Assembly (NCBI GenBank): GCA_903858935.1
Contig: CAIOKO010000180.1
Span: 1-64,000 of the forward strand
Length of the DNA: 64,000 nt
Direction: 5' to 3'
Source: an uncultured Schlesneria sp.
GTDB taxonomy: Bacteria > Planctomycetota > Planctomycetia > Planctomycetales > Planctomycetaceae
A program made the position numbers and the translations under genes. The stretch's first letter is position 1, and the number at the start of each line of letters is the position of its first letter. Shown here one piece after another: positions 15,970 to 55,327 of the stretch. Under the pieces are notes generated by a model that saw nothing but the letters and a program-made list of their open reading frames with translations, was not told the DNA's origin and did no database searches.

Positions 15970-16504
15970 TGGAGGAACCCCAAGGAATTTTTTGAAACAA
16001 TTCAATTGCCGTGAAGACGTTGAGACGGGCAAGGCATTTTGTCTTAATGGAAACATGATTGGAAGTCTGACACGACGGATTTTTGCCGTTCATCAAGCGA
16101 CGATTTAAAAACACGAGATCCCAAAGTGACTGACCATTTTCCGATCAGTTGGCAGATTACCTGTCAATTACCGGAATTCCGTTCCAATGGCATCGACTGA
16201 TGCGTGTGTACCGATGTCACGTCAAAAACGAATTCGAGCGGTATCGATCCTGGTAAGATTCGAGAATTATGATGATTAGTCTGAAAAACTGTTTGACCGG
16301 GCCTTAACTCGGGAATACTGTTGATGGGAGGTTGCAGTGTCAGCGCGCAGCAACCACTCGACGTCAAAAGCTCGATCGAGTTGGCGCAACATGAACTGAT
16401 TGAAAGGAGTTATTCAGGTTTTGAAATGGTATCTCTGGCGCAGATGGAACGCGCGTCAAAACAGTGATCATCACTATCGGTGTAACCTGAAGGAATTCTG
16501 AATT
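15970..16504. other. Divergent intergenic region, 535 bp
   Basis: Separates the minus-strand giant gene from the plus-strand ATPase locus and must hold promoters for both. I see an interrupted inverted repeat GGTTGC...GCAACC (about 16329-16354) and an AT-rich stretch around 16258-16290, but no promoter, operator or small gene that I would defend. Confidence 0.35.
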
Positions 16505-16915
16505 ATGACAAACGAAACCTCGCCTGAGACAAACGCATTTCTGGCGGACGTGGCGGACAAATTGGAATCTGCCGCTTCAAATCTTGAAGCAGGCGTCGGT
16601 GCCACCAGCGCCGCGATCGGTGGATGGACCAGTAAATATGCGAATGCCAATTTTGCAAGCAAGCTGGCCTACACCGCTTGCTATGCCTTTTCATATGGAG
16701 TCTGTTTCCCGATTTTCGTCGCCTGCCACTACGTCCCCAAGAACAACAGTCTCGTGGACGGCCTGATGGATGGCGGGGCTTCTGCGAATGCGTCGGTCGA
16801 TCAATTCATCGAACGAGCAACGACCGGTCGTCGTGTTCGCAAAGAACAAGATTCGATGTCGAGTGAGTACTCGGAAATTGCGGAAGACGGTGCGGGAGCG
16901 CTTGAATTAACTTGA
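16505..16915 (+). CDS. Small membrane protein of the P-type ATPase locus (paralogue A)
   Basis: A 136-residue protein of unknown function. Residues 1-45 are soluble and Ala/Ser/Glu-rich; about 50-78 form a hydrophobic segment ending in FPIFVACHYVPKNNSLVDG, followed by a polar tail rich in charged residues. The segment GV.FP....(10 residues).P.NNSLV.G..DG aligns with the protein at 24511-24825, so the two are paralogues standing at either end of the ATPase genes. The ATG is preceded by AAGGA with a 10-base gap. It is the first gene of the co-directional block and is separated from the ATPase gene by a small hairpin. No family is recognised. A membrane adaptor or compartment component is possible, but this is inference. 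Confidence 0.75.
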   Translation: MTNETSPETNAFLADVADKLESAASNLEAGVGATSAAIGGWTSKYANANFASKLAYTACYAFSYGVCFPIFVACHYVPKNNSLVDGLMDGGASANASVDQFIERATTGRRVRKEQDSMSSEYSEIAEDGAGALELT

Positions 16916-16940
16916 TTTTCATGCTGATGCCAGAAATTTG

Positions 16941-16961
16941 GTACGCTTGTTGCGTACTTTT
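16941..16961 (+). terminator. Weak intrinsic terminator or attenuator
   Basis: GTACGC, loop TTGTT, GCGTAC, then TTTT: a 6-bp stem followed by four T, 25 bp after the stop of the gene ending at 16915. It could partly uncouple that gene from the ATPase gene. The rest of 16916-17216 shows no other clear feature; a GTG-started extension of the ATPase frame covers 17064-17216 but looks non-coding. Confidence 0.4.
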
Positions 16962-17216
16962 GTTGATAACCCATCACACAGATTTGTTTCACCCCTTATT
17001 GAGGCAGATTTGAATCGCGAAGGTCGTTGACGCCGAGCAATTTGGTCGACACCAACGATTTTCGTGGAATTGGAAAACGCAAGTTGCGTTTCGCCGTTGA
17101 GTGCTGCTCCAGACGATGCACGGATGCATGACCGCTGCCAGCCGATTTGTGGAGGATTCTACAAATCCTCATGGGACTCGGTATCGTTGAAGTTTGCATG
17201 TTTTGGAGTTGTTGAA

Positions 17217-20141
17217 ATGTTGGATTGTGTGGTCCTTCCTTCAGGTCCGGGTGCTCTTCGCATTGGCAGTGCGACGCTTTTTGCAGATTTGAATAACCCG
17301 TTGACGAAAGCCTTTCTCGGATGTTTGCTTGAGGCTGATCCCGCCGCACAGATTTCGATTCACGGCGGCGGCGTTGCCGGTCGACAGGCGATCGCTGAAA
17401 TTCGACATAGTCAGTCTTCAACGACTCAATTCTTGACTGCAGTTGTCAGCTACATGCGAAATCTGGCAGGTGTACCAGCGAAGTTTGCATCAAAGGTTGC
17501 CGAGCCAGAAGTTCATGCTGCACCACAACCACGTGCGAAGAAGGCCAAAGCGGCCGCCAAAACGCTGGTTTCCACTGGTGTGGGTTCAGTGAACGGAAGT
17601 CTGTTCCAGGGTGCGTCGGGTGACGACAATTCAGGCTCTTCGCATAGCAACACGCATAGCAACTCGCATAGCAACAGCACGGCAAATGGCAGCGTGCACA
17701 GCACGGCGAACGGCAGCGTGCACAGCACGGCGAACGGCAGCGTGCACAGCACGGCGAACGGCAGCGTGCACAGCACGGCGAACGGCAGCGTGCACAGCAC
17801 GGCGAACGGCAGCGTGCACAGCACCACAAATGGCAGCGTGCAACACGGGCCAGCTCAGTCGAAACGAACCAAAGCCGTATCGGAACGAACGAAAGTTTCG
17901 CTGGGCGACGTTCGGCTGATACCAGACCGAAAAGGGGTCACGCGGATTGGTCGTAATGGAACTCACGCCACGACATGGGAAGTCATCCATGAAACACCAG
18001 GCCGGTTGCGATTGAAGCACCCGGCACTTTATCGCCGAAAAGAAGTTTGCCAGGAGATCGAACGCGAGTTAATGAGTATCCTGGGGATCGACAGTTACAA
18101 AACCCGTCCTTCCACTGGTTCTCTGCTGATCACCTATAACAAGCGTGAGCTTCGCAAGGATCAGGTTCTGACGATTCTTGATCGTGCAATTGGACGCGCG
18201 GATTTATCAGCGAAACTCGATCCTCCGGACCTGGATTTCCCGCTCGCGGTCGCTTCAGTCCCGTTTGCGGCTGTCGCCCAGTTTGCAGCGCCGCCACTAC
18301 TGCCCGCTGCGGGGCTGCTGTTCGGCTACACGTCGATTACAACGTTTAAAGAAGCCTATCACGTGCTCGTACACGAACGTCGTTTAGGCGTCGACGTCCT
18401 TGACGCAATCGTCGTGACTGGCTGTGTCGCCACCGGTCAGATCTTTGCAGGATCGGTGTTGTGTCTGTGCCTCAGCTTTGGGCGAATGCTGGTGAAGAAG
18501 ACTCAGGACGATTCGAAGCGGCTTTTAGTTCAGGCCTTCGGCAAGCAGGCTCAGTTCGTGCGGCTTTACCGCGATGGCGACGAAATCGAGACTCCGCTGG
18601 AAGAATTGCAGAAGGGAGACATCATTGTCGTTCATACTGGCGACGCCGTTCCCGTGGACGGATTCGTCAAGGAAGGGATGGCAATGATCGATCAGCACGC
18701 ACTGACGGGGGAATCGACTCCTTCAGAGAAATCGCCTGGCGATCGCGTGTTCGCCGCCACGCTGATGGTCGCGGGAAAGATTTACGTCGAAGTCGAGAAT
18801 GCTGGTTCTGATACGACTTCCGCCAAAATCGCTCAGATCCTCAATGATTCGGCCGGGTATAAGCTGACCAGTCAGCATAAAGGGGAGCGGATGGCGGATA
18901 AGGCCGTCATCCCGACCCTGGCGATTGCTGCCGCAGGATTGGCAACTCTCGGTCCTCAAGGTGCTGTCGCAGTACTCAACAGCGACTTTGGTACCGGGAT
19001 CAGGATGGCGGCACCGCTGGGGATGCTCACTTCGCTGGCCCTGTGTGCGCATAAAGGAATTCTCGTCAAGGACGGACGAGCTCTGGAATTAATGAACGAC
19101 ATCGATACTGTACTCTTCGACAAGACCGGTACGTTGACTCGCGAACGCCCTGAAGTTGGTCACGTCATCCCCTTCAACGGTCATGAGCGAAACCGGCTAT
19201 TGCAACTTGTCGCTTCAGCAGAACAGCGATTCTCGCATCCGATCGCGAAATCAATTGTTTTGGAATTTGAAAAGACCGGCCTGCCGATGCTGCCGATTGA
19301 TGACTCCAAATACCAGGTGGGATATGGGCTGGAAGCGGTGATTGACGGACACAAGGTCATGGTCGGCAGCAGCCGTTATATCAAGCTGGAAAACATCGAA
19401 ATTCCGGTCGAAGTTCAGGAAGTTGTTGAGGTCGCTCATCGCGAAGGCCACACGCTGGTGATGTGTGCGTTGGACGGTCTCTTCGCGGGTGTCATCGAGC
19501 TTCGTGCCTCGCAGCGTCCTGAAGTCGTCAGCATCATCAAAGGACTTCGAGATCGCGGGATCAAGCACATTGCGATTATCTCGGGCGACCATGAAGGTCC
19601 CACGAAGAAGTTGGCTGAAAGCCTGGGGATGGACGAATACTTCGCAGGCGTATTGCCAGGCGACAAAGCCGACTACGTTGAACGCTTGCAGAAACAAGGG
19701 AGGAAAGTCTGCTTCGTGGGTGACGGTATTAACGACTCGATCGCCCTCAAGAAAGCCAACGTTTCGATTTCGCTGCGTGGAGCGTCGTCGATCGCCACCG
19801 ATACGGCTCAGATCGTATTTATGGAAGAAAGCCTGCATCGATTATGCGAACTGCGGGACATCGCACGAGACTTGGACAGGAATGTCAAAAACAGCTGGTA
19901 TCTGATCCTGGCTCCGAACGCATTGTGTATTGTCGGTGCATTTACCATGGGATTTGGGATCATGGCGTCGGTGTTTACCAACAATGTGGCAGCGATGGCC
20001 GCGCTGGCAAACGGGATGATGCCGCTTAAGCGAATCGCGGACGAACAGGCGATGAAACAAGCACAAAAGGAAATGACACTGATGGTTACAGAGTCACTTG
20101 AGGCCGCTCATCAGCCTCAAGTTCATTTGCAACCTGCCTGA
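17217..20141 (+). CDS. P1B-type metal-transporting ATPase with His/Asn/Ser repeat linker
   Basis: A 974-residue cation pump with all catalytic motifs: actuator TGES at 497-500, phosphorylation Asp635 in DKTGT, and GDGIND at 835-840. Residues 1-85 form an unassigned small alpha/beta domain; residues about 150-210 are a low-complexity Ser/Asn/His linker with seven 8-residue repeats; residues about 253-330 form an HMA_2-like domain (HETPGRLRLKHP) without a CxxC metal site. The intramembrane position normally occupied by CPC reads SDFGTG (589-594), so this is not a Cu/Zn pump of the classical type; the metal is unknown, and iron is one possibility. ATG at 17217 is chosen because GGAG lies 8 bases upstream; the longer GTG frame from 17064 lacks one. 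It heads the core of the locus with the degenerate ATPase downstream. Confidence 0.9.
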   Translation: MLDCVVLPSGPGALRIGSATLFADLNNPLTKAFLGCLLEADPAAQISIHGGGVAGRQAIAEIRHSQSSTTQFLTAVVSYMRNLAGVPAKFASKVAEPEVHAAPQPRAKKAKAAAKTLVSTGVGSVNGSLFQGASGDDNSGSSHSNTHSNSHSNSTANGSVHSTANGSVHSTANGSVHSTANGSVHSTANGSVHSTANGSVHSTTNGSVQHGPAQSKRTKAVSERTKVSLGDVRLIPDRKGVTRIGRNGTHATTWEVIHETPGRLRLKHPALYRRKEVCQEIERELMSILGIDSYKTRPSTGSLLITYNKRELRKDQVLTILDRAIGRADLSAKLDPPDLDFPLAVASVPFAAVAQFAAPPLLPAAGLLFGYTSITTFKEAYHVLVHERRLGVDVLDAIVVTGCVATGQIFAGSVLCLCLSFGRMLVKKTQDDSKRLLVQAFGKQAQFVRLYRDGDEIETPLEELQKGDIIVVHTGDAVPVDGFVKEGMAMIDQHALTGESTPSEKSPGDRVFAATLMVAGKIYVEVENAGSDTTSAKIAQILNDSAGYKLTSQHKGERMADKAVIPTLAIAAAGLATLGPQGAVAVLNSDFGTGIRMAAPLGMLTSLALCAHKGILVKDGRALELMNDIDTVLFDKTGTLTRERPEVGHVIPFNGHERNRLLQLVASAEQRFSHPIAKSIVLEFEKTGLPMLPIDDSKYQVGYGLEAVIDGHKVMVGSSRYIKLENIEIPVEVQEVVEVAHREGHTLVMCALDGLFAGVIELRASQRPEVVSIIKGLRDRGIKHIAIISGDHEGPTKKLAESLGMDEYFAGVLPGDKADYVERLQKQGRKVCFVGDGINDSIALKKANVSISLRGASSIATDTAQIVFMEESLHRLCELRDIARDLDRNVKNSWYLILAPNALCIVGAFTMGFGIMASVFTNNVAAMAALANGMMPLKRIADEQAMKQAQKEMTLMVTESLEAAHQPQVHLQPA
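17676..17843 (+). repeat. Seven in-frame 24-bp tandem repeats inside the ATPase gene
   Basis: Seven units of 24 bp, each encoding STANGSVH (last unit STTNGSVQ). Units 2-6 are identical at the nucleotide level, which points to recent expansion by slippage or unequal recombination. The units contribute one histidine each (six in total), after a short run with the pattern HSN that adds more His. Length changes would stay in frame. The GC-rich repeat also creates long antisense shadow frames, which are not genes. Confidence 0.95.
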
Positions 20142-20337
20142 GATGACAAGTCAAGATAACAACACGATTAACGAGATGCGGTGTAAGCTGAGTGAATTTC
20201 AAGTGAAGTCCAAACGGTCGTATTAACACGGGTTTCCTCGTTGATTTCATCATCAAAATCAGGCCCTGAAATACGAATCCCGTTTGAAATCTGCCTTGAA
20301 TGTTCATTGTGAATCTTCATCAGAGTTACTCGCAGAA

Positions 20338-20901
20338 ATGAGTGAAAAGATGGAAAGTTTCGATTCAAACCAGACACCGGTCGCTACCATGGAACAGAAC
20401 CATCCATTCCTTTCGTCAGCGACTCAGACAACGTCTAACTCTGCGGGAGCATCGACAACAAATTCCAGGGTTTTGGAGGTATTTCTTGTTGACTCGGGAT
20501 GGAACAACGAAGTCGGCAAGGCCGTACGGGAAAACTTGCCTGTGTTTGCGGATTACCTGCACGGACAGAGATTTTATGTCTTATCAGAAGAGCAATCTTT
20601 GGAGTTTATCAGAAAACATCCGTCACTGGTCGGGGCGGACCCGATCCTGATTGTTCTCGATCGAGAAGCAGCAAGACAGAAGAACCCGAAAGGATATGGA
20701 TTCCGTCTTTGTCTCGGACATATGCGAAATCCAGAAGCGGCCATTTCCATGTTAAAATGGGCCATTCAATTGTCGATGGCATCAAACGGCCCGCAAATGT
20801 CGACGATCGTCAAAGAGAGCGGACATCGTCAAACGATTCAGGGGACCATTGAATTGATTGGAGAAGGGACAGCTCATCTGCTTGAGTTTGCACCCGTCTA
20901 A
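20338..20901 (+). CDS. Soluble protein of unknown function in the ATPase locus
   Basis: A 187-residue protein. Residues 1-50 are polar, rich in Ser/Thr/Asn and probably disordered. Residues about 51-185 look like one alpha/beta domain beginning with VLEVFLVDSGWNNEVGKAV and containing DPILIVLDREAA and FRLCLGHMRNP. No signal peptide or membrane segment. I prefer ATG at 20338 (MSEKMESF) over an upstream TTG in the same frame at 20284. I do not recognise the family; a thioredoxin-like or Rossmann-like fold would fit the strand-helix pattern, but no active-site motif is visible. Its place between the two ATPase genes suggests it works with them. Confidence 0.65.
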   Translation: MSEKMESFDSNQTPVATMEQNHPFLSSATQTTSNSAGASTTNSRVLEVFLVDSGWNNEVGKAVRENLPVFADYLHGQRFYVLSEEQSLEFIRKHPSLVGADPILIVLDREAARQKNPKGYGFRLCLGHMRNPEAAISMLKWAIQLSMASNGPQMSTIVKESGHRQTIQGTIELIGEGTAHLLEFAPV

Positions 20902-21034
20902 TATGACAGATTGTTAACTGTTGCTGATTTAAGACCGGTATATTAATCGCAAATGGTGTCGAAGTGTTTTGAACGGCTTGGGCTTTTCGATAATTGAGAT
21001 GATAGGAATTGAAAACAGTGGGGGGTGAATCGCG

Positions 21035-21247
21035 ATGACCGAAGGGGGTTTGGGTGGAATACTGGTTGGTATCATGGGTGTCGTCGGACTGACTTATCTG
21101 GGAGTGAAAGTTCGTCAGAACCGACGCCGACTGCAAAAAATGGTTGGCGTCATTGATGAGCAACATACGTTTGAAACGGAGTACCTGCTCGGACTCGCAG
21201 ATTCAGGACAGTTACGATTGTATAAATCAGGGCTATCCTCGTCTTGA
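21035..21247 (+). CDS. Small single-pass membrane protein
   Basis: A 70-residue protein with one N-terminal membrane segment (GGILVGIMGVVGLTYLGVKV, about residues 7-26), then a basic stretch (RQNRRRLQKM) and a polar tail. GGGGGTG precedes the ATG by about 7 bases. It lies 49 bp upstream of the degenerate ATPase gene in the same direction. The Arg-rich juxtamembrane region puts the tail in the cytoplasm by the positive-inside rule. No family recognised; a small subunit or membrane-shape modulator of the neighbouring ATPases is a guess from position. Confidence 0.6.
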   Translation: MTEGGLGGILVGIMGVVGLTYLGVKVRQNRRRLQKMVGVIDEQHTFETEYLLGLADSGQLRLYKSGLSSS

Positions 21248-21295
21248 AAATCATTTGAGGAATTACTCGTTAAAGCAGCCCCCGGCGGTGGTCAA

Positions 21296-23632
21296 ATGTC
21301 TCAAGCGACTCAACTTTTCGTAGATCACGAATCACGCAAGGTGACGTTGCGCACGCCGGTGATTGGATACGGCCAGCCGTGGGATGTGACGCGAGAATTA
21401 GTTGGCCGATTGCTTGCCAGCAGTTGCGTTGAATCTGTGTCGCTGGATCGGCGGAATCAAACCGCCACGATTCAATTAAAAAACGATGAAACGCCATCTG
21501 TAAGGATTCCCGTTTCAGATGACGCGGCCGATCCTGACAGCCTTTCGCCTGATTGGTGTTTGAAATCGATTGCCAGTCGATTGCGAGATGCGACATCTGC
21601 GATTTCGACGATCAGCGACGAATACGCTTCGATTGAACTTCTGCAATTGCAGAAGACCAAATCAGGGGTGACCGCTGGAACGATCGTGCATTCGGTTCCC
21701 GGTCGAGTCCGAATTCGTCATCCACTTGCGAAAGGGGACTCTGACTTATCCTGTCGAATCAAAGATTCGATGGGTAGGATTTCTGGAGTTCAGGCCGTTT
21801 CTGTTTCTTCCACGACAGGTTCCGTGGTGGTGTCATTCAATCCGGCACGCACGAACGCGAATAAGTTGTTGTTGGAGCTGGAAAGCGTATTGATCTCAAG
21901 ACCGGATCAAATCAGCCTCCTCTCAGGCCCTCCAACAAGCAGATGGGTTGCCAGCGGCACCTGCCTGGGTCTGGCGGTGGCTTCTGAGTTCTTTGCGCCC
22001 GGTCTGGCACCTGTGACAGCAACCGCGCTCGTGGGTTTCAACTTGTCGACGATGGGAAAAGGGATTGTTGAACTTTGCACGCTGAAATGGCGAGTGGCGT
22101 CCCTTTACACGGTGATTATGGGGACAACCCTGATCAGCGGACAATTCCTTGCTGCGGCCCTGATGCATGCCTCGATTACGTGCTGGCACGGTTGGTCAAG
22201 TCATCGACTGCGCAAGATTGCGGATCGGCTGAAGAGTGAATCTCAACTTCCGCTTGTCATCTGTCGGTCGCATCACAATCTGTTAATGAACGGTGAGCGG
22301 TTTCCAGAATGTTTAATCGGAACGATTGTCACCGTTGAAGCTCAAATGACAGTCCCCTACGACGGCGTCGTGATTTGTGGAGAAGGATTGCTTGACGAAC
22401 GTTGTGTCCGTGGCAGCGAAGGTATTTCACGGCGAACGACGGGAGACAGCGTGTTTGCAGGGTCATATCTCACTCACGGGCAATTGCGGATTCAAGTCAC
22501 GGCTGTCGACAAACAGACGCGTGTTGCCAAAGTCCGCGAGACACTGCTTGCTTCGATTGCTGGATTGCCTGGCGAGGGGGGCCCAACGGAACGTGGAGAT
22601 GACTCGGCTTCCAGTTTTGTTCCTTACACGTTTGCGACAGGGACCGCAGCCCTGATGGTTGGCGACCTGTCGACGCTCGCGGCCGTCCTGCGACCCGACT
22701 TCGCCACAGGACCATCGATGTCGGAAAGATTCGGCACACTCAGTAGTGTCGGCCATTTGTGGAACCGAGGCTGGCTGGTCAAGAAATCCGAAACACTGCA
22801 CGACCTGGCAAAGACGGAAACCGTCGTTGTCGTTCGCACCAATGAAACCGTTCACCAGGATGCGGACGATTCACTCGATCCGGCGTTGGAGGATGAGCGT
22901 CAACTGGATGCCGATCAAATCGGCCGTCGCACTGTTACTTTGGGAACCAGAAAACTGGACATTCACGAAATCGAAGGCAACAGCTCTCAGTGTGTCGCCT
23001 ACATTCGCGAGCTACGGTCTTTAAATTACCGAGTTGCGGTGGTGGCAAACGGAAGTCTCTTGAACAGACTTGCTCATGATGACCTGATCCGGATTTCGTT
23101 AACCCCCGAGAATTCGTTCGGCAACAAGAACACGGACCTGGTTGCACTTCACTCTGAACCACATCGAGTTGAAGAATTATGGCAGGTGTTGCAAGAATCC
23201 CGCCGCCCGAATCAACAGGGTTGGGCAGCAGTCGTTGCCTGCAACATGCTGGCGGTGTCAGGAGCGTTTCTCGTTGGATTAACGAGCTTACACGTGGTTG
23301 TTTTGACAAACCTTGGCGCGTTGGCCGCCGGCGCACTTTACAGTCGGCACGTCAATCGCTCGGGTCTGATGCTGTCACCAGATAGCCAGCCCGGGTTACG
23401 AATCGAGCACGCCCCCCTTCAGTTCAATTCCCGGACAGGGAGTTTATCGAAGGAAAACCTTGTTGAAAATAACGCGAAAGAAAGCGATATCATTCAAACT
23501 GAGGCAATCAGTCCGTATCGAAAGTCGCTGAATGAAGGGGTGATTACTCCTGCGTCACCCGACAGTCGACAAGTTCAAATGACCGAAAACAGCGAAAGCG
23601 ACTTTGAGCGGCCCGTTTCGGCAACTTCTTGA
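21296..23632 (+). CDS. Catalytically dead P-type ATPase homologue (pseudo-ATPase)
   Basis: A 778-residue protein that aligns with the intact ATPase two genes upstream. It keeps the HMA_2-like domain (HSVPGRVRIRHP from His132), the actuator fold, the membrane helices and the intramembrane motif PDFATG (467-472, the intact pump has SDFGTG). All catalytic residues are lost: TGES is replaced by GSEG (373-376), the phosphorylated Asp of DKTGT by Arg514 (VVRTNET), the ATP-binding N domain is almost absent, and GDGIND is missing. The C-terminal membrane part still matches (TNLGALAA versus TNNVAAMAAL). The frame is open throughout and codon use looks normal, so it is maintained, not a pseudogene. Likely a partner, regulator or structural subunit of the active pump. 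Confidence 0.85.
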   Translation: MSQATQLFVDHESRKVTLRTPVIGYGQPWDVTRELVGRLLASSCVESVSLDRRNQTATIQLKNDETPSVRIPVSDDAADPDSLSPDWCLKSIASRLRDATSAISTISDEYASIELLQLQKTKSGVTAGTIVHSVPGRVRIRHPLAKGDSDLSCRIKDSMGRISGVQAVSVSSTTGSVVVSFNPARTNANKLLLELESVLISRPDQISLLSGPPTSRWVASGTCLGLAVASEFFAPGLAPVTATALVGFNLSTMGKGIVELCTLKWRVASLYTVIMGTTLISGQFLAAALMHASITCWHGWSSHRLRKIADRLKSESQLPLVICRSHHNLLMNGERFPECLIGTIVTVEAQMTVPYDGVVICGEGLLDERCVRGSEGISRRTTGDSVFAGSYLTHGQLRIQVTAVDKQTRVAKVRETLLASIAGLPGEGGPTERGDDSASSFVPYTFATGTAALMVGDLSTLAAVLRPDFATGPSMSERFGTLSSVGHLWNRGWLVKKSETLHDLAKTETVVVVRTNETVHQDADDSLDPALEDERQLDADQIGRRTVTLGTRKLDIHEIEGNSSQCVAYIRELRSLNYRVAVVANGSLLNRLAHDDLIRISLTPENSFGNKNTDLVALHSEPHRVEELWQVLQESRRPNQQGWAAVVACNMLAVSGAFLVGLTSLHVVVLTNLGALAAGALYSRHVNRSGLMLSPDSQPGLRIEHAPLQFNSRTGSLSKENLVENNAKESDIIQTEAISPYRKSLNEGVITPASPDSRQVQMTENSESDFERPVSATS

Positions 23633-23677
23633 AAGTCCTTTTTATCATCCTTCTCCTGTTGTGCAGGGAAAAATATC

Positions 23678-24184
23678 GTGTCCGAATTGAATACTCTCGA
23701 TCCACCACCGACGCAATCTTCTCACGAAGAACCTGGCGTGGAACGAGTCGTGAACGTTCCCTGGGTTGATGGAGCGGGTACTTCTGGTGAACCGCCTTTG
23801 GCGTCTCACGCGGAAAACATGGACGGCTCGAAGTCGCGAGTTGACCAAGCTGAACCGCTTGTCGAAAACGCGGTCGACACTCCGGACAATCCTGAAGATG
23901 CCCTTGCGAATGGAGGTGAACAGAATTCGAACGAGCTACTTGGAAAACTGCCTCCTGAAATCGGCATGCTACTCGTCATTTCGGGAGTCGCCGGAATTTT
24001 ACTGCCAGGTCTCGTCGGTACACCCCTTTTAATCGCGGGTGGTGTCTCGATCTGGCCAAAGACATTTGAACCGATCGAACGCTGGTTCAGTCGACGATTT
24101 CCGTCCGTTCATAAAGAAGGTGTGATCCAAATTAAGGAGTTCATTTCGGATCTCAATAAAAGATTTCCGAACGAGTCTCAATAA
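23678..24184 (+). CDS. PGPGW-like membrane protein with acidic N-terminal tail
   Basis: A 168-residue protein starting at GTG. Residues 1-88 are acidic and low in complexity, probably disordered. Residues about 95-125 hold a hairpin of two short membrane segments (IGMLLVISGVAGILLPGLVG, then TPLLIAGGVSIW), a pattern like the PGPGW family of small membrane proteins. The C-terminal 45 residues are basic and amphipathic (RWFSRRFPSVH). It follows the pseudo-ATPase gene by 45 bp. Function unknown; the family resemblance is weak and rests on the glycine/proline-rich hairpin. Confidence 0.6.
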   Translation: MSELNTLDPPPTQSSHEEPGVERVVNVPWVDGAGTSGEPPLASHAENMDGSKSRVDQAEPLVENAVDTPDNPEDALANGGEQNSNELLGKLPPEIGMLLVISGVAGILLPGLVGTPLLIAGGVSIWPKTFEPIERWFSRRFPSVHKEGVIQIKEFISDLNKRFPNESQ

Positions 24185-24287
24185 AATAATTCAGTGAATT
24201 GAGTTGATCGCGCCCGCTTCTTCTCTGTTTAATAAAGTTGTGAATTTGTCCCGCCCACTTTAAGCACTCTCGTGAGGAGTATTGATA

Positions 24288-24401
24288 ATGTCCCGCGCTA
24301 TTCGATCCTTGAAATTGTTTGCAGAGTCTGTGTTCGTCGGTTTCGCATTTGCGATTGGCTGGTTTCTCGCTGTCGTTGCCGTATCAGGAATGATTGCCTA
24401 G
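24288..24401 (+). CDS. 37-residue single-pass membrane microprotein
   Basis: A 37-codon gene with ATG at 24288 and TAG at 24399-24401, preceded by AGGAG eight bases upstream, one of the best ribosome sites in the window. The product starts MSRAIRSLKLFAESV and continues with a single hydrophobic helix (residues about 14-36). Basic N-terminus and hydrophobic C-terminus predict a cytoplasmic N-terminus. It lies between the PGPGW-like gene and paralogue B of the locus, same strand. Too short for most gene callers. Perhaps a small regulatory subunit of the neighbouring membrane proteins, comparable in size to KdpF-type ATPase peptides, but that is analogy only. Confidence 0.65.
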   Translation: MSRAIRSLKLFAESVFVGFAFAIGWFLAVVAVSGMIA

Positions 24402-24510
24402 TTTCCAGCGTTGAAAACTTAATTGTCGCTCAATATCCGTGACGCTTGACCGTTTGTACCTGTTTTTTAGTCCCGCGAGTGGGGCTTTCCTTTGAATGTG
24501 AGAACCTGAG

Positions 24511-24825
24511 ATGTCCGAAGCGATGACTGCGACGATTAACGAAACGATTGCCGAAACGTCGACGAATATTCTTGCGACGACGAAAAGTGCCTTTGAATCA
24601 GGGATGGCAGATGCTCGAGCTTCAGTCGAAGAGTCATGGCCAAAAATCGCTGAAGCCGTCAGCAAGGGAGTTTATAATTCCGCTTACTACGTAGCGTTTG
24701 GAGTGACTTTTCCAGTCCTGTTGCTAGCGAAGAGTATTCCACAGAATAACAGTCTCGTTGGAGGCTTCGTCGACGGTGCCCGGCGGGCGAGTATGAGATG
24801 CGACAAGATGTTCAGCGAGAAATAA
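24511..24825 (+). CDS. Small membrane protein of the ATPase locus (paralogue B)
   Basis: A 104-residue protein. The N-terminal 50 residues are Ala/Thr/Glu-rich and helical; about 55-75 is a hydrophobic segment followed by SIPQNNSLVGGFVDGARRAS. This matches paralogue A at 16505-16915 through the shared pattern G(V).FP......P.NNSLV.G..DG.(x)3.A. The presence of both copies at opposite sides of the two ATPase genes suggests a conserved locus component. No known family was recognised. The N-terminal helix could be amphipathic and lie on a membrane surface. Confidence 0.7.
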   Translation: MSEAMTATINETIAETSTNILATTKSAFESGMADARASVEESWPKIAEAVSKGVYNSAYYVAFGVTFPVLLLAKSIPQNNSLVGGFVDGARRASMRCDKMFSEK

Positions 24826-24858
24826 TCTTTTAACCTATGGATGGGCGGAAGGGACGAA

Positions 24859-25695
24859 ATGGCAATTCGAATTCTTGGCACGTCGCACGAATTGACGCTG
24901 ATTTTTGATCGCTCGTCAGTCCGACTGTCGACAGTGCAGATCGATCGATTGAGCCAGACGCTTGGCGACGTGGAGGGGGTGGAATCCGTCCATCCACGTA
25001 CTGCGTGGTTCTCGAGTCCCCGCATCACTGTTGTGTTTGACAAAAACACCCAACCAAACGAAATCCTGCGTCGAATGGCGAGTGCTTTACGTTCGCCGGG
25101 TGGATATGCCGCTTCCTCGTATCAAGCACCTTCATTCGCGACCGCAACTCCAGAACTCACGAGAGTCAATGAGCCTCGTCGCGACTCGTCATTGACCGTT
25201 AAACAAGATTCTTCGGTAGTCGTCGATACTCGGACCCTGGGTCGTCGCCTTTCTGTCCAGAAACGGCTTCGGGAATTGGGATATGGAATTCTGACGCTCG
25301 CCTCATTTGGAATGGCTTGGGTCGGGCTGATCGTACCTGGAATCCCAACCGTTCCGTTTGTCCTGTTGACTGCCCATTTCGCTTTACAAGCATCTCCGAA
25401 ACTCCGAGCCCGAGTGATGAAAAGCCGGATGTTCGGACAGATGATTCGCGATTGGCAGCAGCACGGAGCCATTCGCAGAAGCGTTCAGATCGAAGCGTAC
25501 TTATTGACACTTTTGATCATCGTGGTCGGACTAATTTTTTCGCCACCGATTCCAATCATCTACGCGGGAATGGCGTTTGGAAGTGTCTTAGGCCTTTATG
25601 CGGTTTCTCAAATACCAGTAATCGAGTCGGCCGAAGAGGGTGAAGCCGTGATTAAAACTGGGGGATTTCTCAAACATTTCCCGGCGAATGCCTGA
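24859..25695 (+). CDS. HMA-like domain fused to DUF454 (YbaN-type) membrane protein
   Basis: A 278-residue protein. Residues 1-80 form a small alpha/beta domain with a ferredoxin-like pattern (ELTLIFDRSS, GVESVHPRT, RITVVFDKN, ILRRMASALR) but no CxxC metal motif; it resembles the N-terminal domains of both ATPases here. A polar linker follows. Residues about 135-260 are DUF454: GYGILTLASFGMAWVGLIVP, then VPGIPTVPFVLLTAHF and two further membrane helices. E. coli YbaN is the named relative; its function is unknown. I choose ATG at 24859 because GGAAGGG lies just upstream; another in-frame ATG at 24841 lies before this ribosome site. It follows paralogue B by 33 bp. Confidence 0.8.
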   Translation: MAIRILGTSHELTLIFDRSSVRLSTVQIDRLSQTLGDVEGVESVHPRTAWFSSPRITVVFDKNTQPNEILRRMASALRSPGGYAASSYQAPSFATATPELTRVNEPRRDSSLTVKQDSSVVVDTRTLGRRLSVQKRLRELGYGILTLASFGMAWVGLIVPGIPTVPFVLLTAHFALQASPKLRARVMKSRMFGQMIRDWQQHGAIRRSVQIEAYLLTLLIIVVGLIFSPPIPIIYAGMAFGSVLGLYAVSQIPVIESAEEGEAVIKTGGFLKHFPANA

Positions 25696-25760
25696 TGCGA
25701 ATCGTCTACAATCCTTGTGGCGGCAAGAACAGTTACGCGTCATATTGAGATTGGTACCCG

Positions 25761-26627
25761 ATGAAAACGATCGATTATATCTACCGTTTTGATCCGAAGA
25801 ACACGTCCGTCAAGATTCCGCCTTCGGATGCTGAAAAAGCAAAACACGAGCTTGAAGTTGGCAATCGAATGTTTGCTGACTGGATGAAGAGCTGCCAGCA
25901 CGGTTCGTTGACTCCGGGTGATCCTCACTACGTTGTCGAATGTGCTGGCCTGAACTTTGGTCACACGCCAACCGGGGACGACGTTCCTCGACAGGATCCT
26001 TTTGCGATCGTGATTGGCTGCTCGGATGCACGAGTACCGATCGAAATGGTTTTCGGACAGGGATTCAACGAATTGTTTGTCGTTCGCGTGGCAGGAAATG
26101 TTCTCGCCGACGAATGCTGGGGAAGTATTGACTATGCGCTGAGGGAGCTCAGCGAAAGCGTCAAGCTGGTCGTTGTCATGGGCCACAGTGGTTGCGGAGC
26201 GGTCACAGCGGCTGTCGATGCATATCTCGACCCCAAAAAGTACTCATTAAATGCGATGTCCCTAGGGGTTAAATCGATTCTGAGGCATATTTTTGTCTCG
26301 GTGCATCGAGCAGCAATGGGGCTACAGGAAGTCTGGGGGCCTGACGCGCCAAATTCTCCGTCGTACAGGTCTGCGCTCATTGAGAGTGCTGTCTGTCTCA
26401 ATGCTGCTGCCGCCGCACAAAGCGTACGAACAGCAAATGACCGTATCAGACACGCTGACGTTCGAGTGCTTTACGGCGTCTATGATCTGCGATCACATCA
26501 TGTCTGCATGCCACCCATCTGCACTCACGTGTCAGATCGTGACACGCTCATCAACCTTGCTGATGCTCCAAATGATGCCGCTGAATTTGAATCACTGGCA
26601 CGAGAAATGGCCGTGCGTTTGAAGTAA
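25761..26627 (+). CDS. Beta-class carbonic anhydrase
   Basis: A 288-residue zinc enzyme that interconverts CO2 and bicarbonate. The zinc ligands are Cys87, His142 and Cys145: CSDARVP (87-93, with the Asp-Arg dyad Asp89/Arg91) and HSGCGA (142-147). The gene is longer than the usual ~210-220 residues because of extensions at the N-terminus (about 50 residues) and between the second helix pair. No signal peptide, so cytoplasmic. It lies 65 bp after the DUF454 gene, same strand, and its stop codon is inside a strong hairpin, so it is probably the last gene of the ATPase locus. Whether it works with the pump is unknown; pH or bicarbonate supply for mineral formation would be one reason for the link. 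Confidence 0.9.
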
Positions 26628-26639
26628 CGCACGGCCATT
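26606..26639. terminator. Bidirectional terminator hairpin overlapping the carbonic anhydrase stop
   Basis: AATGGCCGTGCGTT and AACGCACGGCCATT form a perfect 14-bp stem around a 6-base loop (TGAAGT). The left arm encodes the last codons of the carbonic anhydrase and the TAA stop is in the loop/right arm. The next gene is convergent and starts its 3' end at 26700, so one hairpin can serve both directions. No long T-run follows. Confidence 0.7.
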
Positions 26640-26699
26640 AAGATTATGATTTCTTGTCAGCGGTACCATTCACAAAGTGAATGAAAATCGTGACACGAT

Positions 26700-28553
26700 T
26701 TACTTCAATTTCGCCAGCGCCTGATCTGCGGCCTTTCGAACCGATTCATCAGAATCCTTCAGGGCGACTGTCAGCCCTTCCTTGACCGCGGCAGACCCGC
26801 TTCCGATTTCGCCGAGGGTTTTCGCCACTTCCGCTCGCGCCTTCGGGTTCTCGGCACCATGCAGTGCAGCGACGAGCAACGGGATCGCCGTTTCGATGAT
26901 TTGAGGATTTGGAGCGATATGAACAAGGGCCCATGCAGCCACGGACTTTTCGTAAGGATTTCGGCCTTTAAGCAATTTTTGCAGACTTGGAACAGCCGCA
27001 GCAGCGGGTGCTCCAATACGTCCCAATGCAAATCCAGCAATTGGACGGAGAGTTGAATCACCTTCGTTTAAGATCTTAATAATGTCATCGACCGCCGTTT
27101 GGCTGTCAGGACCAATTTCAGCCAAGGCAATCAGTGCTTCGCGACGCACGACAGGAACGTCGTCACTCAAATGTTTTTGAAGTCCTGGAACGGCACCTTT
27201 GGCGCGTTCTCCGATTCGTCCGAGAGTTGCTGCGACTTCACGACGAACTTCAGGTCGTTGACTGTCGAGTGCTTTGATCAACCTGGGAATTGCGATCGTT
27301 TCGTACTCAGCATTTGCGGGATCAAGTTGCAACAACGCCCAGACACTCGCAAGAGCAAGGGTCGGATCGTCGCTTTCGAGCAGACTTTTCAAGCTGGGGG
27401 TTGCTTCCTTGGCACCAATCTTTCCCAGAGCGTAAGCGGCTGCGGATCGGAAAGGGAACTGCTTGTTGTCGAGTGTTTTGATTAACTCGGGAACTGTCGA
27501 TTTCGCGTCGGCACCAATCGAAGCGAGTGCGATAAGAGCTTCTCGCTTTGTTTCGGCATCGTTCGATTGCAGCAGACCCGTTAAGGCTGAAACCGAGTCT
27601 TTTGCATTCGGACCGATGCCAGCAATCACGGGAAGGACCAGCTTTTGCAGTTTTTCACTTTTCAAGCCTTCGATCAGGCCAGGGACGGAAGCCGTTCCAA
27701 GCTGTTGAAGGGCCTGACCAGAACTGAACCGAACTTGTGCGTCCGGATCGGAGAGACCGGCGATGAGCGTCGGCACAGCAGATTTGGCAGCAGGTCCGAT
27801 GTCGCCAATCGCGCTGATCGCGTGCCAGCGTAGTTTCAAATCAGTTGATTTCGCGGCCGTGATCAAGCGATCAACTGCGGTGGCGGCTCCGTGGCCGATT
27901 CCAGCAATGGCATCAATCGCATTAAGGCTGGCGGTGGAACTTGGGCCACCAATGAGCTGCTGAAGTGATGGTACTGAGGGGGTGCCAATCAGGACCAGAC
28001 CTTGAATGGCTTCGGCAGAAACATCTTGTCGATCACTTTTCAGTCCCGCGACAAGGACGGGAACCAGCAACGCGGCATTTTCCGCCTTGCCTGATTCAAT
28101 CTCTGCAATTGCGTGTGCGGCGCTAACGCCGATTAACTGTTCTTTATCAAACAACAGTTTTTTCAGTTGCGGAACAGAAGACTGTGCCGCTGGACCAAAC
28201 TTTCTCAGTGCACTGATCGCACTGAGACGGAGTAATGGGAAGGGATCTGTGAGCACACTATTCAGTGCGGGTACAGATTCTTTTGGGTTCGAATCAATTC
28301 TTCCTAACGCTTCAATAATTTCATGGCGCAGGGCGGGATCGTTGATCCCGAGCGACTTGACCAGAAGCGGAACGGATTCGGCGGCGGCAGGGCCGATTTC
28401 CCCCAGTTGTTGAGCTGATTCCGTCTTTTCCTCCAAGCTGCCCGATTCGAGCAATTTGCGGAGTGTCGCGAGTTCGGTGTCTTGAGCCAAAGCGGACGAC
28501 ACCGCCAAACACATTACCAACGTTGCCAACGTTCCAGTCAGTCCAATTCTCAT
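26700..28553 (-). CDS. Secreted HEAT-repeat protein
   Basis: A 617-residue protein with a signal peptide (residues 1-23, ALAQDTE after the hydrophobic core) followed by about fifteen HEAT/PBS-lyase-type repeats of 36-40 residues, each with the pattern P.L...L.D....(R..A...LG.IG). Examples are AVPSLQKLLKGRNP and REALIALAEIGPDS. The repeats fill the whole mature protein, giving a solenoid for protein binding; no catalytic domain. Exported HEAT proteins are common in planctomycetes and their partners are mostly unknown. Convergent with the carbonic anhydrase gene and divergent from the gene at 28746. Confidence 0.85.
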   Translation of the reverse strand: MRIGLTGTLATLVMCLAVSSALAQDTELATLRKLLESGSLEEKTESAQQLGEIGPAAAESVPLLVKSLGINDPALRHEIIEALGRIDSNPKESVPALNSVLTDPFPLLRLSAISALRKFGPAAQSSVPQLKKLLFDKEQLIGVSAAHAIAEIESGKAENAALLVPVLVAGLKSDRQDVSAEAIQGLVLIGTPSVPSLQQLIGGPSSTASLNAIDAIAGIGHGAATAVDRLITAAKSTDLKLRWHAISAIGDIGPAAKSAVPTLIAGLSDPDAQVRFSSGQALQQLGTASVPGLIEGLKSEKLQKLVLPVIAGIGPNAKDSVSALTGLLQSNDAETKREALIALASIGADAKSTVPELIKTLDNKQFPFRSAAAYALGKIGAKEATPSLKSLLESDDPTLALASVWALLQLDPANAEYETIAIPRLIKALDSQRPEVRREVAATLGRIGERAKGAVPGLQKHLSDDVPVVRREALIALAEIGPDSQTAVDDIIKILNEGDSTLRPIAGFALGRIGAPAAAAVPSLQKLLKGRNPYEKSVAAWALVHIAPNPQIIETAIPLLVAALHGAENPKARAEVAKTLGEIGSGSAAVKEGLTVALKDSDESVRKAADQALAKLK

Positions 28554-28745
28554 GCCCGATGCCCTTTGAACGCGAGTTTATGCTTGATGGAGAGATATCG
28601 AAGCGGTACAACATCTTGTTGTTCTCTCTGAATTCTAACAGGGTGAACACCGCTGTCGCCACTCAATGAAATTGTTTTCGTGATGTGTTCGACAAGAAAA
28701 TTCATTCCAGATCGTTTGTGCTGTCATTCCGTGAAGGGGTTGGAC

Positions 28746-29447
28746 GTGAAGAAGTTGCTTGTCACTGCAAGTCTGTTTTTGGCTGCCACAGTAACTTGTG
28801 TATCCTCAGCAACCGCTTATGACAATTTTGGCATGTATGGCGGTGCTGCAATGGCAGGCTTTGGCGGCGGTTGGGGTGGTTATGGCTGGGGCGGTTCCCA
28901 GGGTGGCATTGGTGGCATCTACGACGGCCAGGCAAACGTCATCCGGTCGGAAGGGATGTACAATCAGATGACTTCCCAGGCCGCCATCAACTTACAGAAG
29001 GCGAATCAGGAAAACGAGAAGGCTCGGGCGCTCCACCTGGAAAACCAGCAGAAGATTCACGAAGAAAGGCTGAAACGCACACGTGAAGCCAAGGTTCGTC
29101 AATCGGAAGAACGCGTCGAAAATATGGCAGCGCGAGAGCGTCAGCAGGAATTCATTGACGCCCATAAGCCCCAGCCCTTGGCTGGCAGCCAACTCGATCC
29201 TTCAACCGGCCAAATCAACTGGCCGTCACCCTTGAGAACGTCGGATTTCGATGATTTTCGTAAGGCCGTGGAAGCGTTATTTGAAACGCAGACGAAATAT
29301 GGATCGACCTCAGACCTCACAATCCAGATCGTCAGAAAAGTCGGAGAAATGAAAGATCTGTTGCGAAAGCAGATCTTGAATATGCCGATGCCGGAATATT
29401 CCGAGTCACGTAAGTTTCTTGACAGTCTGGCAGCATCGGCACGCTGA
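28746..29447 (+). CDS. Secreted Gly-rich coiled-coil protein
   Basis: A 233-residue protein starting at GTG 28746, chosen because AAGGGG lies just upstream and because it starts the signal peptide (VKKLLVTASLFLAATVTC). After the cleavage site follows a Gly/Tyr/Trp-rich stretch (about residues 30-65), then a long charged coiled coil (about 80-145, KANQENEKARALHLENQQK) and a helical C-terminal part. No family recognised. A perfect 12-bp palindrome GCTCGCGCGAGC (29452-29463) follows the stop codon and separates this gene from the convergent GTPase gene; it may terminate both. Confidence 0.7.
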   Translation: MKKLLVTASLFLAATVTCVSSATAYDNFGMYGGAAMAGFGGGWGGYGWGGSQGGIGGIYDGQANVIRSEGMYNQMTSQAAINLQKANQENEKARALHLENQQKIHEERLKRTREAKVRQSEERVENMAARERQQEFIDAHKPQPLAGSQLDPSTGQINWPSPLRTSDFDDFRKAVEALFETQTKYGSTSDLTIQIVRKVGEMKDLLRKQILNMPMPEYSESRKFLDSLAASAR

Positions 29448-29492
29448 TTTCGCTCGCGCGAGCCAGAGTTGGTGTATTGTGATTTGCCGGGA

Positions 29493-30740
29493 TTATTCCG
29501 ATTTATTTTCGCGCCAGACCGAGACAGCGTGCTGCATCTGTTCGGCCCAGACTCGATTCAGGTCATCCGTCGAAGGGACGTGTCCGTCTTTCATCTCGCC
29601 GAAATACCAGCAGCAGGCTTTTCCAAGCGAATATGTGTAAGCAAACGCCATTGCGGCATTGGCCGTTTGTCCGACGAATGGAATGAATTTGAGCGGCGCT
29701 TTAATTAAAAACTTGACCGCCAGCCTGCCGCCGACGGCGCCTGCCATCTTGACCAGAAGACCCGCGTTCATTTTTTGATCATAGAGATCTGCGAGTAAAT
29801 AAATTAATCGCGTCTGTAGGGCCATAACGAGTGGGATGTCAACCCATGGCAACGGTGACGCGGCTGATGTCGCCGCCAGGCTGCTATAGGTCAGAATAGT
29901 TGGCATTGCTTGTTTTGCCGTTAAATCTCGCAGGGAATTTCGCACGTCGTCAAGGTGAATTAAGGCTTGGCGATAGGCTGCGGGGAGCAGTTCGATTAAG
30001 GCTTCTTCCAGCCGTGCCCCACCAAAGTTGGGTTGTTCAAAACCTTCCTCAGGTGGCGTCAAATCAATCGGAACGATTCGATCAACCAGACCTGAAAACC
30101 GTTCTTCCTGCTCTCGCAGGCTTCGTTGAAGCGAGGGATGACCAGCCAGTGACGAAGGGCGTTGACCCAATTCGTTTGCGGCTGTATCGACTTTGACTTG
30201 TGACGTTTCAGCGGGTGCATCGGTTTTCGGTTTGCGGATCACATCGAATGGGTCGGGATTGGGATGTTGCTCAAACGGATAAGCTTCATGCAGACAGGTC
30301 AGCACCAGCACGATTGGGCGGGTAGGACGAGCAGCCCGAATCTTTCGTAGCGGATCAACGATCTCCGCGAGTGCATGATCCATCACTCGAACCACGAGAA
30401 TCACCACGTGGGTTGAACTGTCGAAGGATTCAATGTCTTCCTTAGGGTCATAACCGGATTCACCCAGACCACGCGTATCTAAAAACCTAACAAGCGGCTG
30501 CGAGGAAGACGGAAAATCGTAACGAAATGAAGTCTTCGTCTGGGGCTGAAATCCGTTGCCGATTTCTGCCTGAGTCGACCCGGTGATAAAGCGGACAATC
30601 GTTGACTTTCCGCTACCGGTTTTACCGAAGAGCCAAAAGACCGGGACGGGTATTTTTTTTAACAGTTCCTGACGTTTCCGTTCGAACTGTTCGTCCGACA
30701 GCGACCCAAACCCGAGCAGGGACTTGATTCGATCGAACAT
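29493..30740 (-). CDS. GTPase with C-terminal DUF697 membrane-associated domain
   Basis: A 415-residue P-loop GTPase. Residues 30-175 hold the G domain: G1 GKTGSGKST (about 39-47), G3 DTRGLGES (about 88-95), hydrophobic strand VVILVVRVMD and the G4 region, which reads VLTCLHE instead of NKxD, so guanine specificity may be altered. Residues about 185-260 are a polar insertion. Residues about 265-400 match the DUF697 pattern of hydrophobic helices (AGAVGGRLAVKFLIKAPLKF, PFVGQTANAA), as in YcjF/YcjX-like and Era-like membrane GTPases. Function in planctomycetes is unknown; membrane-bound stress or envelope role is inferred from the family. Confidence 0.8.
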   Translation of the reverse strand: MFDRIKSLLGFGSLSDEQFERKRQELLKKIPVPVFWLFGKTGSGKSTIVRFITGSTQAEIGNGFQPQTKTSFRYDFPSSSQPLVRFLDTRGLGESGYDPKEDIESFDSSTHVVILVVRVMDHALAEIVDPLRKIRAARPTRPIVLVLTCLHEAYPFEQHPNPDPFDVIRKPKTDAPAETSQVKVDTAANELGQRPSSLAGHPSLQRSLREQEERFSGLVDRIVPIDLTPPEEGFEQPNFGGARLEEALIELLPAAYRQALIHLDDVRNSLRDLTAKQAMPTILTYSSLAATSAASPLPWVDIPLVMALQTRLIYLLADLYDQKMNAGLLVKMAGAVGGRLAVKFLIKAPLKFIPFVGQTANAAMAFAYTYSLGKACCWYFGEMKDGHVPSTDDLNRVWAEQMQHAVSVWRENKSE

Positions 30741-30841
30741 TGTCTGCAGCCTTGTAGTGGTGAGTTATATTGCGCATTGATCGCGTCGACTGTATTGAAG
30801 CACTAATCGACGCGACATGCGATGAACTCGCCCTCCATTGG

Positions 30842-32809: not shown

Positions 32810-33147
32810 CCTCGCCACTCCATTGAAGCGATCAAAAACTTTTTTCCGCTTCCAAAAGCAATTTTGGACACGGAATCCATTCCCTTGTGGATTCTAGGTA
32901 ATGTCCAAAACCACGTCACCAGCAGTTTTTCGGCGGACAACCAGCTCCCCTGAACCTTCGAAACGTTCATGGCTGAGACCGGGGTTGAGCATAGTAACAG
33001 TAAGTCCTCGAGGCATCAAAAGTCCTATTCTTCATGTTAAAAGTGACAATACATCGAAAGGGTCTACTGCGTTAGAGCGACGTCTTGTCAATTCCAATCA
33101 GTTATCGTAAAGCTTTCAAAAAGACACTCTCAGGAAGGACGGGAGCG
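32810..33147. other. Divergent intergenic region, 338 bp
   Basis: Lies between the minus-strand thioredoxin-fold gene and the plus-strand exchanger gene. A TTG-started extension of the exchanger frame covers 33085-33147 but has no homology. I see no convincing promoter, riboswitch or small gene. Confidence 0.3.
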
Positions 33148-54054: not shown

Positions 54055-54227
54055 CGGAACGTCCGCGAAATGAAACGATTCGAACCTTAAGTATCACAGT
54101 TATGCGATCCGGGCCGCTTCGGCACTCGGACAATTGAACGGCGAAAGTTCAGTCAGTGACGGCGGAATAATTCGGAAGCAGACCCCGTTAAGTTCGCCTT
54201 GACCGCTTATCCTGAAGGGCAGATGAC

Positions 54228-54914: not shown

Positions 54915-54920
54915 CAGATT

Positions 54921-55214: not shown

Positions 55215-55327
55215 GCGATTTCAACGTTTTTCAGCAATGTCAGCGACAGGCACTGGCCAGGCGGCGAACCGCACACCCCCAAAACTTTTTGCTCGATTCG
55301 GAATGAGATTCGATGGAGACAATTTAA

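Follow-up and report, generated by a model that had tools for sequence, protein, structure and literature searches.

A conserved bacterial gene module pairing an active and a pseudo P-type ATPase, found in an uncultured Schlesneria sp.

The window analysed here is a stretch of 64,000 nucleotides from an uncultured Schlesneria sp. of the Planctomycetota (contig CAIOKO010000180.1 of assembly GCA_903858935.1, positions 1 to 64,000 of the forward strand). Between positions 16505 and 26627 lie ten open reading frames (ORFs), named A to J, all on the plus strand and with intergenic gaps of 15–148 bases (Table 1). A preliminary description made from the sequence alone had drawn this locus as ten co-directional, closely spaced genes assembled around an active and an inactive P-type ATPase. 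All ten genes were confirmed at their positions, and the composition proposed for the locus was right in its domains and motifs, the match of F being sub-threshold. The locus is a genuine conserved gene module, widely shared among bacteria, and not a local oddity.

Table 1. Genes of the module and the Ca2+/H+ exchanger gene downstream, in window coordinates
Gene	Position	Strand	Product
A	16505-16915	+	136-residue A/H-family membrane protein, putative scaffold
B	17064-20141	+	1025-residue active-type P1B ATPase, DFGTG in transmembrane helix 6 (TM6), two N-terminal HMA-like domains
C	20284-20901	+	Soluble protein, probably thioredoxin-like, without CxxC
D	21035-21247	+	70-residue protein, single transmembrane helix, basic juxtamembrane stretch
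E	21296-23632	+	778-residue pseudo-ATPase; HMA-like domains, membrane core and RPDFATG retained
F	23678-24184	+	PGPGW/DUF454-like membrane protein (below cut-off)
G	24288-24401	+	37-residue membrane microprotein
H	24511-24825	+	Second A/H-family small membrane protein
I	24841-25695	+	HMA-like domain fused to DUF454
J	25761-26627	+	Beta-carbonic anhydrase, probably peripheral
CAX Ca2+/H+ exchanger	33085-34290	+	TIGR00378; 6.5 kb downstream of the ten-gene locus

In Pfam, B is composed of HMA_2, E1-E2_ATPase and Hydrolase domains, while E has HMA_2 and a partial E1-E2_ATPase domain without the Hydrolase domain; I matches DUF454, J matches Pro_CA, and F gives a weak, sub-threshold match to PGPGW/DUF454. 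No Pfam family matched A, C, D or G, and the single match of H (Ldh_1_C, E value 0.11) was at chance level. A search of the whole genome with HMA_2 returned two matches, both inside the ten-gene locus. Nothing in Rfam matched positions 15500 to 35000, and a promoter and terminator scan was uninformative, with sites rarer than in shuffled sequence; a stem with a T-rich tail 3' of A (16940) is a hint only.

Gene B scored 422.5 bits against TIGR01525 (cut-off 346.25), which places it in the P1B-type family, and it carries DKTGT, TGES and GDGxND together with an intramembrane DFGTG instead of CPC. When contigs were scanned with the profile of B (LNSDFGTG and DQHALTGE as patterns), 164 relatives emerged, of which 80 were kept; with the window these make 81 loci (below, L numbers denote loci and G numbers genomes). 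In the resulting alignment of active pumps TM6 reads mostly D-[FLM]-G-T-G-I-R. The TGE motif and the phosphorylated Asp are retained in all 77 rows counted as active. One of these rows is a CPC pump (L092, 743 residues), leaving 76 true members, and the intramembrane Asp is present in 75 of them, with Glu in the last (L139). Two rows, L089 (902 residues) and L149 (793 residues), were counted as active yet have no intact DKTGT. The L149 pump (9998-12379), which belongs to the second of two clusters in G030, has a gap and DKTST in place of DKTGT, and could represent a sequence error, decay or a pump in the course of becoming a pseudo-pump. The linker between the two HMA-like domains of B itself (about 17650-17860) appears by eye to consist of low-complexity repeats of the HSTANGSV type.

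Gene E retains DFATG, but DKTGT is absent and VRGSE replaces the TGES stretch, with loss of the TGE Glu; its score against TIGR01525, 62.3 bits, is below the cut-off of the P1B family. An active and an apparently inactive ATPase that share an HMA_2-like domain and a DF(G/A)TG motif, as first described, are thus borne out. Relatives of E were taken as the rows that do not contain GDG[IV]ND, so that the absence of this motif is by construction, whereas DKTG was counted afterwards; ATPase-family ORFs shorter than 600 residues were excluded, and the 51 rows became 50 once L126, a truncated active pump, was removed. DKTG occurs in none of the 50 pseudo-ATPases and the TGE Glu in one of 49. The intramembrane Asp is found in every one of the 50, followed three residues further by Thr or Ser in 44, and the Asn residues of TM7 and TM8 are kept in 48/49 and 47/49, respectively. 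In these proteins catalysis appears to have been lost and the membrane ion site to have been held, the pattern that a non-catalytic transport subunit would show. Since the retained side chains are oxygen donors, they would favour a hard cation over Cu, Zn or Cd. The pseudo-ATPases diverge faster than the pumps (median pairwise distance 0.76 vs 0.43), and the one in L053 carries a fused F-like domain.

Relatives of B occur in Schlesneria and other Planctomycetota, in Methylococcaceae (Methylolobus aquaticus, Methylotetracoccus oryzae), in Verrucomicrobiota, in Alphaproteobacteria and in Azomonas macrocytogenes, with Rhodoblastus acidophilus DSM 142, Acidocella and Rhodopila also among the hosts named in the records; the viral contigs searched contained none. 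Plasmid pMRAD05 of Methylobacterium radiotolerans JCM 2831 carries ExoD, an A/H-family gene and the active pump, with the pseudo-ATPase lying across the origin of the record and a CorA-family gene between the two ATPases. Among 150 genomes of the window's own family, a search with E gave matches at an E value of 1e-10 in 13, the own genome included. The order A to I is kept in four of the relatives (G109, G140, G075 and G130) and, distributed between two contigs, in G034. Two clusters are present in each of G030 and G093, one comprising A, B, E, F and H and the other A, B, C, D and F; more divergent versions of the locus are found in G057, G062 and G099. A search with B at an E value of 1e-80 in a sample of 294 genomes of the phylum, in which two candidates were scored per genome, returned the own genome and ten others, nine with DYSC[AS] motifs and one with CPC. 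In four proteobacterial loci (L134, L136, L137 and L144) the pseudo-ATPase is oriented divergently relative to the pump. Families that recur in these loci are an amino acid permease (f14), ExoD (f10) and a small protein (f17); f17 has a J-domain-like HPDxGG stretch by eye and no Pfam match.

When the ORFs chosen as genes in the 81 loci were clustered, 64 loci proved to contain the A/H family, 37 to contain F, 34 C and 20 CAX. Two small families, f5 (D-like, 68 residues) and f6 (about 104 residues), were present in 20 loci each, the EcsC family (one member checked in Pfam) in 12, and relatives of I with DUF454 and an HMA-like domain in 11 plus 6. In 33 loci, the window among them, the pump is flanked by no less than 2.5 kb of upstream and 5 kb of downstream sequence; six of the 81 (L085, L094, L116, L126, L132 and L147) are by rule without an active pump and were excluded from this count. 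Counted anywhere in these well-flanked loci as fetched, 31 had an A/H gene and 28 a pseudo-ATPase; F was present in 20 of them, C in 15, D in 12, and CAX and I in 9 each. The A/H profile matched all 12 genomes with the system and none of 18 chosen genomes without it, the latter being 17 chosen from the 137 without an E match and G048, in which E has a weak match to a pump with a PC-type motif. Among 45 genomes of the family that includes Aquisphaera insulae, from which the label Isosphaeraceae is taken, the A/H profile (E value 1e-10) and the active-pump profile (E value 1e-130) each matched 29; both were found in 28 and neither in 15, the two discordant genomes being G448 with A/H alone and G475 with the pump alone (Fisher p 7e-10, a value that overstates independence because the genomes are related). 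In these 33 loci and sets of 30 and 45 genomes, homologous genes do co-occur outside the window.

A quick tree of 78 rows, calculated after two outgroup rows (L003 and L007) had been dropped and accompanied by a program warning about long pseudo branches, placed all 29 sampled pseudo-ATPases in one clade with a Shimodaira-Hasegawa-like approximate likelihood ratio (SH-aLRT) of 100. This clade stands beside 35 of the 36 sampled active pumps (support of the active group, 81). The active and pseudo groups sit within a wider D[FY] group that also holds DYSCA pumps, apart from the five CPC rows, which form a separate branch (SH-aLRT 99). With DFGTG in TM6, B does not belong to the CPC clade of Cu, Zn and Cd pumps, a placement on which the preliminary description had made its proposal depend. 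In the active and the pseudo half of the tree alike, Azomonas groups with the Alphaproteobacteria and Rhodopila with the Methylococcaceae, the Rhodopila pseudo and active rows coming from two contigs of one genome, and pairwise distances of the partners correlate (r 0.85 over 44 pairs; none of 2000 permutations was as high). Because partner distances correlate and both halves group alike, the active and pseudo members of the pair appear to travel together.

The small proteins A and H, first described as paralogues, belong to one family with an invariant Pro and two invariant Gly across 85 rows, and a gene of this family ends no more than 1.3 kb from the pump start in 51 of 66 pumps. The AlphaFold model of A (predicted local distance difference test score, pLDDT, 75.7; predicted template modelling score, pTM, 0.41) has a helix, one transmembrane helix, a P-x-N-N turn and a long helix, a shape that would fit a scaffold. 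The microprotein G is kept in five relatives (57-92% identity in G109, G140, G075, G130 and G034), and it is therefore probably a real gene. Gene C had been put down as an unknown soluble protein; it is soluble, and its model has a thioredoxin-like fold without CxxC (pLDDT 76.3; best Foldseek match thioredoxin-like, probability 0.97, E value 0.045), giving a weak indication of what C may be. The carbonic anhydrase gene J had been counted into the locus; it is present, and lies outside the conserved core. It adjoins the locus in the three closest relatives alone (G109, G034 and G140) and its family was found in three of the 81 clustered loci (the window, L071 and L095). As a core part it was rejected, and it is probably peripheral.

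The CAX gene of the window scored 302.1 bits against the calcium/proton exchanger equivalog TIGR00378 (cut-off 211.15); its relatives of solved structure are a vacuolar calcium transporter (4k1c) and YfkE, and it is the sole copy found in its genome. Within the clustered loci, 20 of 21 instances of CAX lie no more than 1.5 kb from another gene of the module, and CAX also forms separate mini-clusters, in the order CAX, A/H, EcsC in G057 and CAX, I, A/H, F, A/H in G030. At least 10 of the 29 ATPase-bearing Isosphaeraceae genomes have CAX within 7 kb of a pump or A/H gene, a minimum since some weaker rows were omitted from the count. Leaving aside the window's own genome, CAX was found in 7 of the 11 locus-bearing genomes, compared with 2 of 13 that lack the locus. 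An obligatory role for CAX was rejected because its presence in the Isosphaeraceae is not associated with the ATPase and because it is missing from some genomes that bear the locus; the physical linkage recurs, and CAX is better described as a common companion of the module than as one of its constant components.

Beyond what Pfam assigns to HMA_2, the N-termini of B, E and I contain extra HMA-like domains, and the extension at the N-terminus of three CAX proteins (L087-L089, two of them near-identical) is HMA-like as well. Comparisons of profile hidden Markov models (HMMs) among the domains of B, E, I and the CAX fusions gave probabilities of 91-99.7% in 14 of 15 cases; 48 control comparisons with unrelated segments gave at most 9.2%. 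Some of these domains match HMA_2; Arg and Lys are frequent in them, and they seldom contain CxxC, which occurs in the N-terminal region of 2 of the 77 active rows and none of the 51 pseudo rows. CoBaHMA domains have an HMA fold without the metal-binding Cys and with conserved basic residues, and are linked to calcyanin and to cyanobacterial calcium carbonate. That the domains described here are of the CoBaHMA type is a lead only.

Upstream of the locus and divergent from it (4402-16056, minus strand) lies a gene for a giant protein of 3884 residues with many TPR repeats and DUF1581/DUF1583_N, which is kept next to the locus in G034 and G140. On the 3' side, positions 26700-32818 encode a HEAT-repeat protein, a 255-residue protein of unknown type, a DUF697 GTPase and a thioredoxin-like protein, in an order kept in G034, G109, G140 and G130. 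At 52630-58493 there is an unremarkable cytochrome oxidase region, comprising COX1, FixO, a DsbD-like protein and the other P-type ATPase of the window (55504-57693), which has a CPC motif.

Searches of a library of open-licence papers for pseudo or inactive P-type ATPases, or for any two of P-type ATPase, DUF454, EcsC, HMA2 and PGPGW together, returned nothing relevant, and no description of a system of this composition was found there. A known system of similar logic is PacL1-CtpC of Mycobacterium, in which a P1B-ATPase, the zinc exporter CtpC, is encoded beside a small protein with a single transmembrane helix that the pump needs, and in which foci and large complexes have been proposed to be platforms (PMC9374683). 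The A/H genes stand beside a P1B pump in the same manner, but the locus includes a pseudo-ATPase, whereas the abstract of that paper names none, and the module is larger, its partners including HMA-like, DUF454 and thioredoxin-like proteins and, in many cases, CAX. Judged by family matches alone, A and H show no homology to the PacL family, A being without a Pfam or NCBIfam match and H having only the chance-level one mentioned above. In ferrosomes, the ATPase FezB is likewise accompanied by a membrane protein, FezA (PMC12574912), and the Fez cluster includes FezC, a DUF4405-like haem protein (PMC10979944). The locus resembles this cluster in combining a transporter ATPase with small membrane proteins; it differs in its pseudo-ATPase, in its linkage to a Ca2+/H+ exchanger and in the absence of DUF4405 matches among the ten genes (Pfam, E value up to 1).

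P1B ATPases with DYSCA or DFICG motifs, such as that of the Priestia plasmid pBM400, occupy neighbouring tree branches and also have HMA2 proteins beside the pump. Unlike the pumps described here they have a Cys in the TM6 motif, and within the 12 kb examined weak matches to the pseudo and active profiles came from short HMA2 proteins alone, with no full pseudo-subunit. A plasmid cluster of Gloeothece verrucosa similarly has a DFGTG ATPase near a 522-residue HMA2 protein resembling a pseudo-ATPase, but its neighbours are DUF1345 and DUF5132 genes and its ATPase lies outside the main paired clade. This HMA2 protein (L173, 9819-11387) has FAAKS by eye where DKTGT is expected, and looks like a second, different pseudo-ATPase. 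KdpFABC is a multi-subunit P-type pump, and so comparable in having several subunits, but none of its extra subunits is a P-type ATPase.

The explanation that we tentatively regard as the best is a hetero-oligomeric pump of an active and a pseudo P-type subunit, with small membrane scaffolds, for a hard divalent cation of which Ca2+ is the most likely. The locus would then encode a membrane cation-pumping machine in which B is the phosphorylating pump and E a dedicated pseudo-subunit, derived from an ancient duplication and deprived of its phosphorylation and dephosphorylation motifs. Because E, though its catalytic motifs are lost, keeps residues that should line the ion site within the membrane, it probably hetero-oligomerises with B, and in the complex it could share or widen the ion path or regulate B. 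A possible role for A and H, with D, F and G, would be that of small scaffolds which bring the pumps together in patches or internal membranes, as in a PacL-CtpC platform, and the HMA-like domains, mostly without CxxC and often basic, may be docking modules shared by B, E, I and some CAX proteins. The ion would be moved against its gradient, with CAX as a frequent partner that may handle the same ion with protons; a storage compartment is possible. Several of the hosts, namely methanotrophs, purple bacteria and planctomycetes, are rich in internal membranes. A bolder version would make this hetero-oligomeric P-type pump the first of a new class: the pseudo-ATPase subunit would supply part of the ion pathway, and A/H scaffolds and HMA-like docking, often with CAX, would build a horizontally spread platform or compartment loading Ca2+ or another hard cation. 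This version is rather unlikely to hold in full.

Several observations weigh against the hetero-oligomeric pump and its proposed partners. Five of the 33 well-flanked loci have no called pseudo-ATPase; two of these (L077 and L130) are without any partner, two (L148 and L149) carry A/H together with C and D, and the fifth, L142, contains an ATPase-family ORF of 559 residues without DKTGT, below the length limit for pseudo rows. The correlation of partner distances is compatible with mere shared descent, and the quick tree has long pseudo branches and program warnings. The window's own CAX, at 7.4 kb, is the single exception among the 21 instances, and in four relatives from the genus CAX is not at the position that it has in the window. 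Moreover, CAX was not found in the locus-bearing genomes G075, G109, G140 and G084 (the last of 66% completeness), and in the Isosphaeraceae it occurs in 27 of 29 genomes with the ATPase and 13 of 16 without (p 0.33). The HMM comparison of the B HMA_2 domain with the CAX extension gave 3.5%, and the thioredoxin-like call for C is weak.

Of the other explanations, a platform like that of PacL1-CtpC, in which the pump, a regulatory pseudo-subunit and scaffolds serve detoxification by exporting excess metal through the inner membrane and form no compartment, is a lesser but real possibility. It would have the same logic of a P1B-ATPase and a small transmembrane scaffold, apparently in one operon (PMC9374683), and a module on a mobilizable plasmid beside a CorA-family gene, as in Methylobacterium radiotolerans, would suit it. 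The TM6 motif, however, offers no thiol ligand, N-terminal CxxC is nearly absent from both kinds of ATPase, and neither A nor H matches a family that ties it to PacL. The parallel with ferrosomes drawn in the preliminary description turned out to be a general one. In a ferrosome-like system the ATPase would fill an iron store enclosed by a membrane with Fe(II), and the vesicle would be built by the small membrane proteins. The DYSCA ATPases that neighbour the module in the tree are presumably P1B-6, the group to which we take FezB to be assigned. Fe(II) is listed for P1B-6 in the table of one review (PMC7558416), and a pump with dedicated small membrane proteins recalls FezB with FezA (PMC12574912), but none of the ten genes is FezC-like and the partner that recurs is a Ca2+/H+ exchanger, which together leave a ferrosome-like store unlikely.

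The pump, CAX and the carbonic anhydrase might instead feed an intracellular store of calcium, perhaps as carbonate, with the HMA-like domains corresponding to the CoBaHMA domains of calcyanin systems. The CAX linkage, the often basic domains that rarely contain CxxC and the anhydrase adjoining the module in the window would agree with this, but the anhydrase is not conserved with the module and, to our knowledge, no host is a calcifier, so that such a store seems very improbable. An ordination of bacterial genomes linked the copy number of Ca2+/H+ antiporters with calcification (PMC12710302), a point in its favour, and calcification transporters are also treated in PMC11773610. That E is a functionless duplicate in decay, carried along by chance, has on its side the faster evolution of E and its absent catalytic motifs; against these stand its retention by 28 of the 33 well-flanked loci, which span several phyla, its long open frames, its single clade, the invariant intramembrane Asp and the L053 fusion, and we consider this explanation extremely improbable.

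P-type pumps are generally viewed as catalysts of one polypeptide or as pumps with unrelated helper subunits. If the hetero-oligomeric pump proposed here is real, a dead twin that keeps the ion site and not the phosphorylation site would mean that the P-type superfamily also forms hetero-oligomers of active and pseudo members. Cultured carriers of the module include Rhodoblastus acidophilus DSM 142, Azomonas macrocytogenes, Methylobacterium radiotolerans JCM 2831 and Aquisphaera insulae, and the module would then provide a genetic handle on how bacteria build membrane patches or compartments dedicated to the handling of cations.

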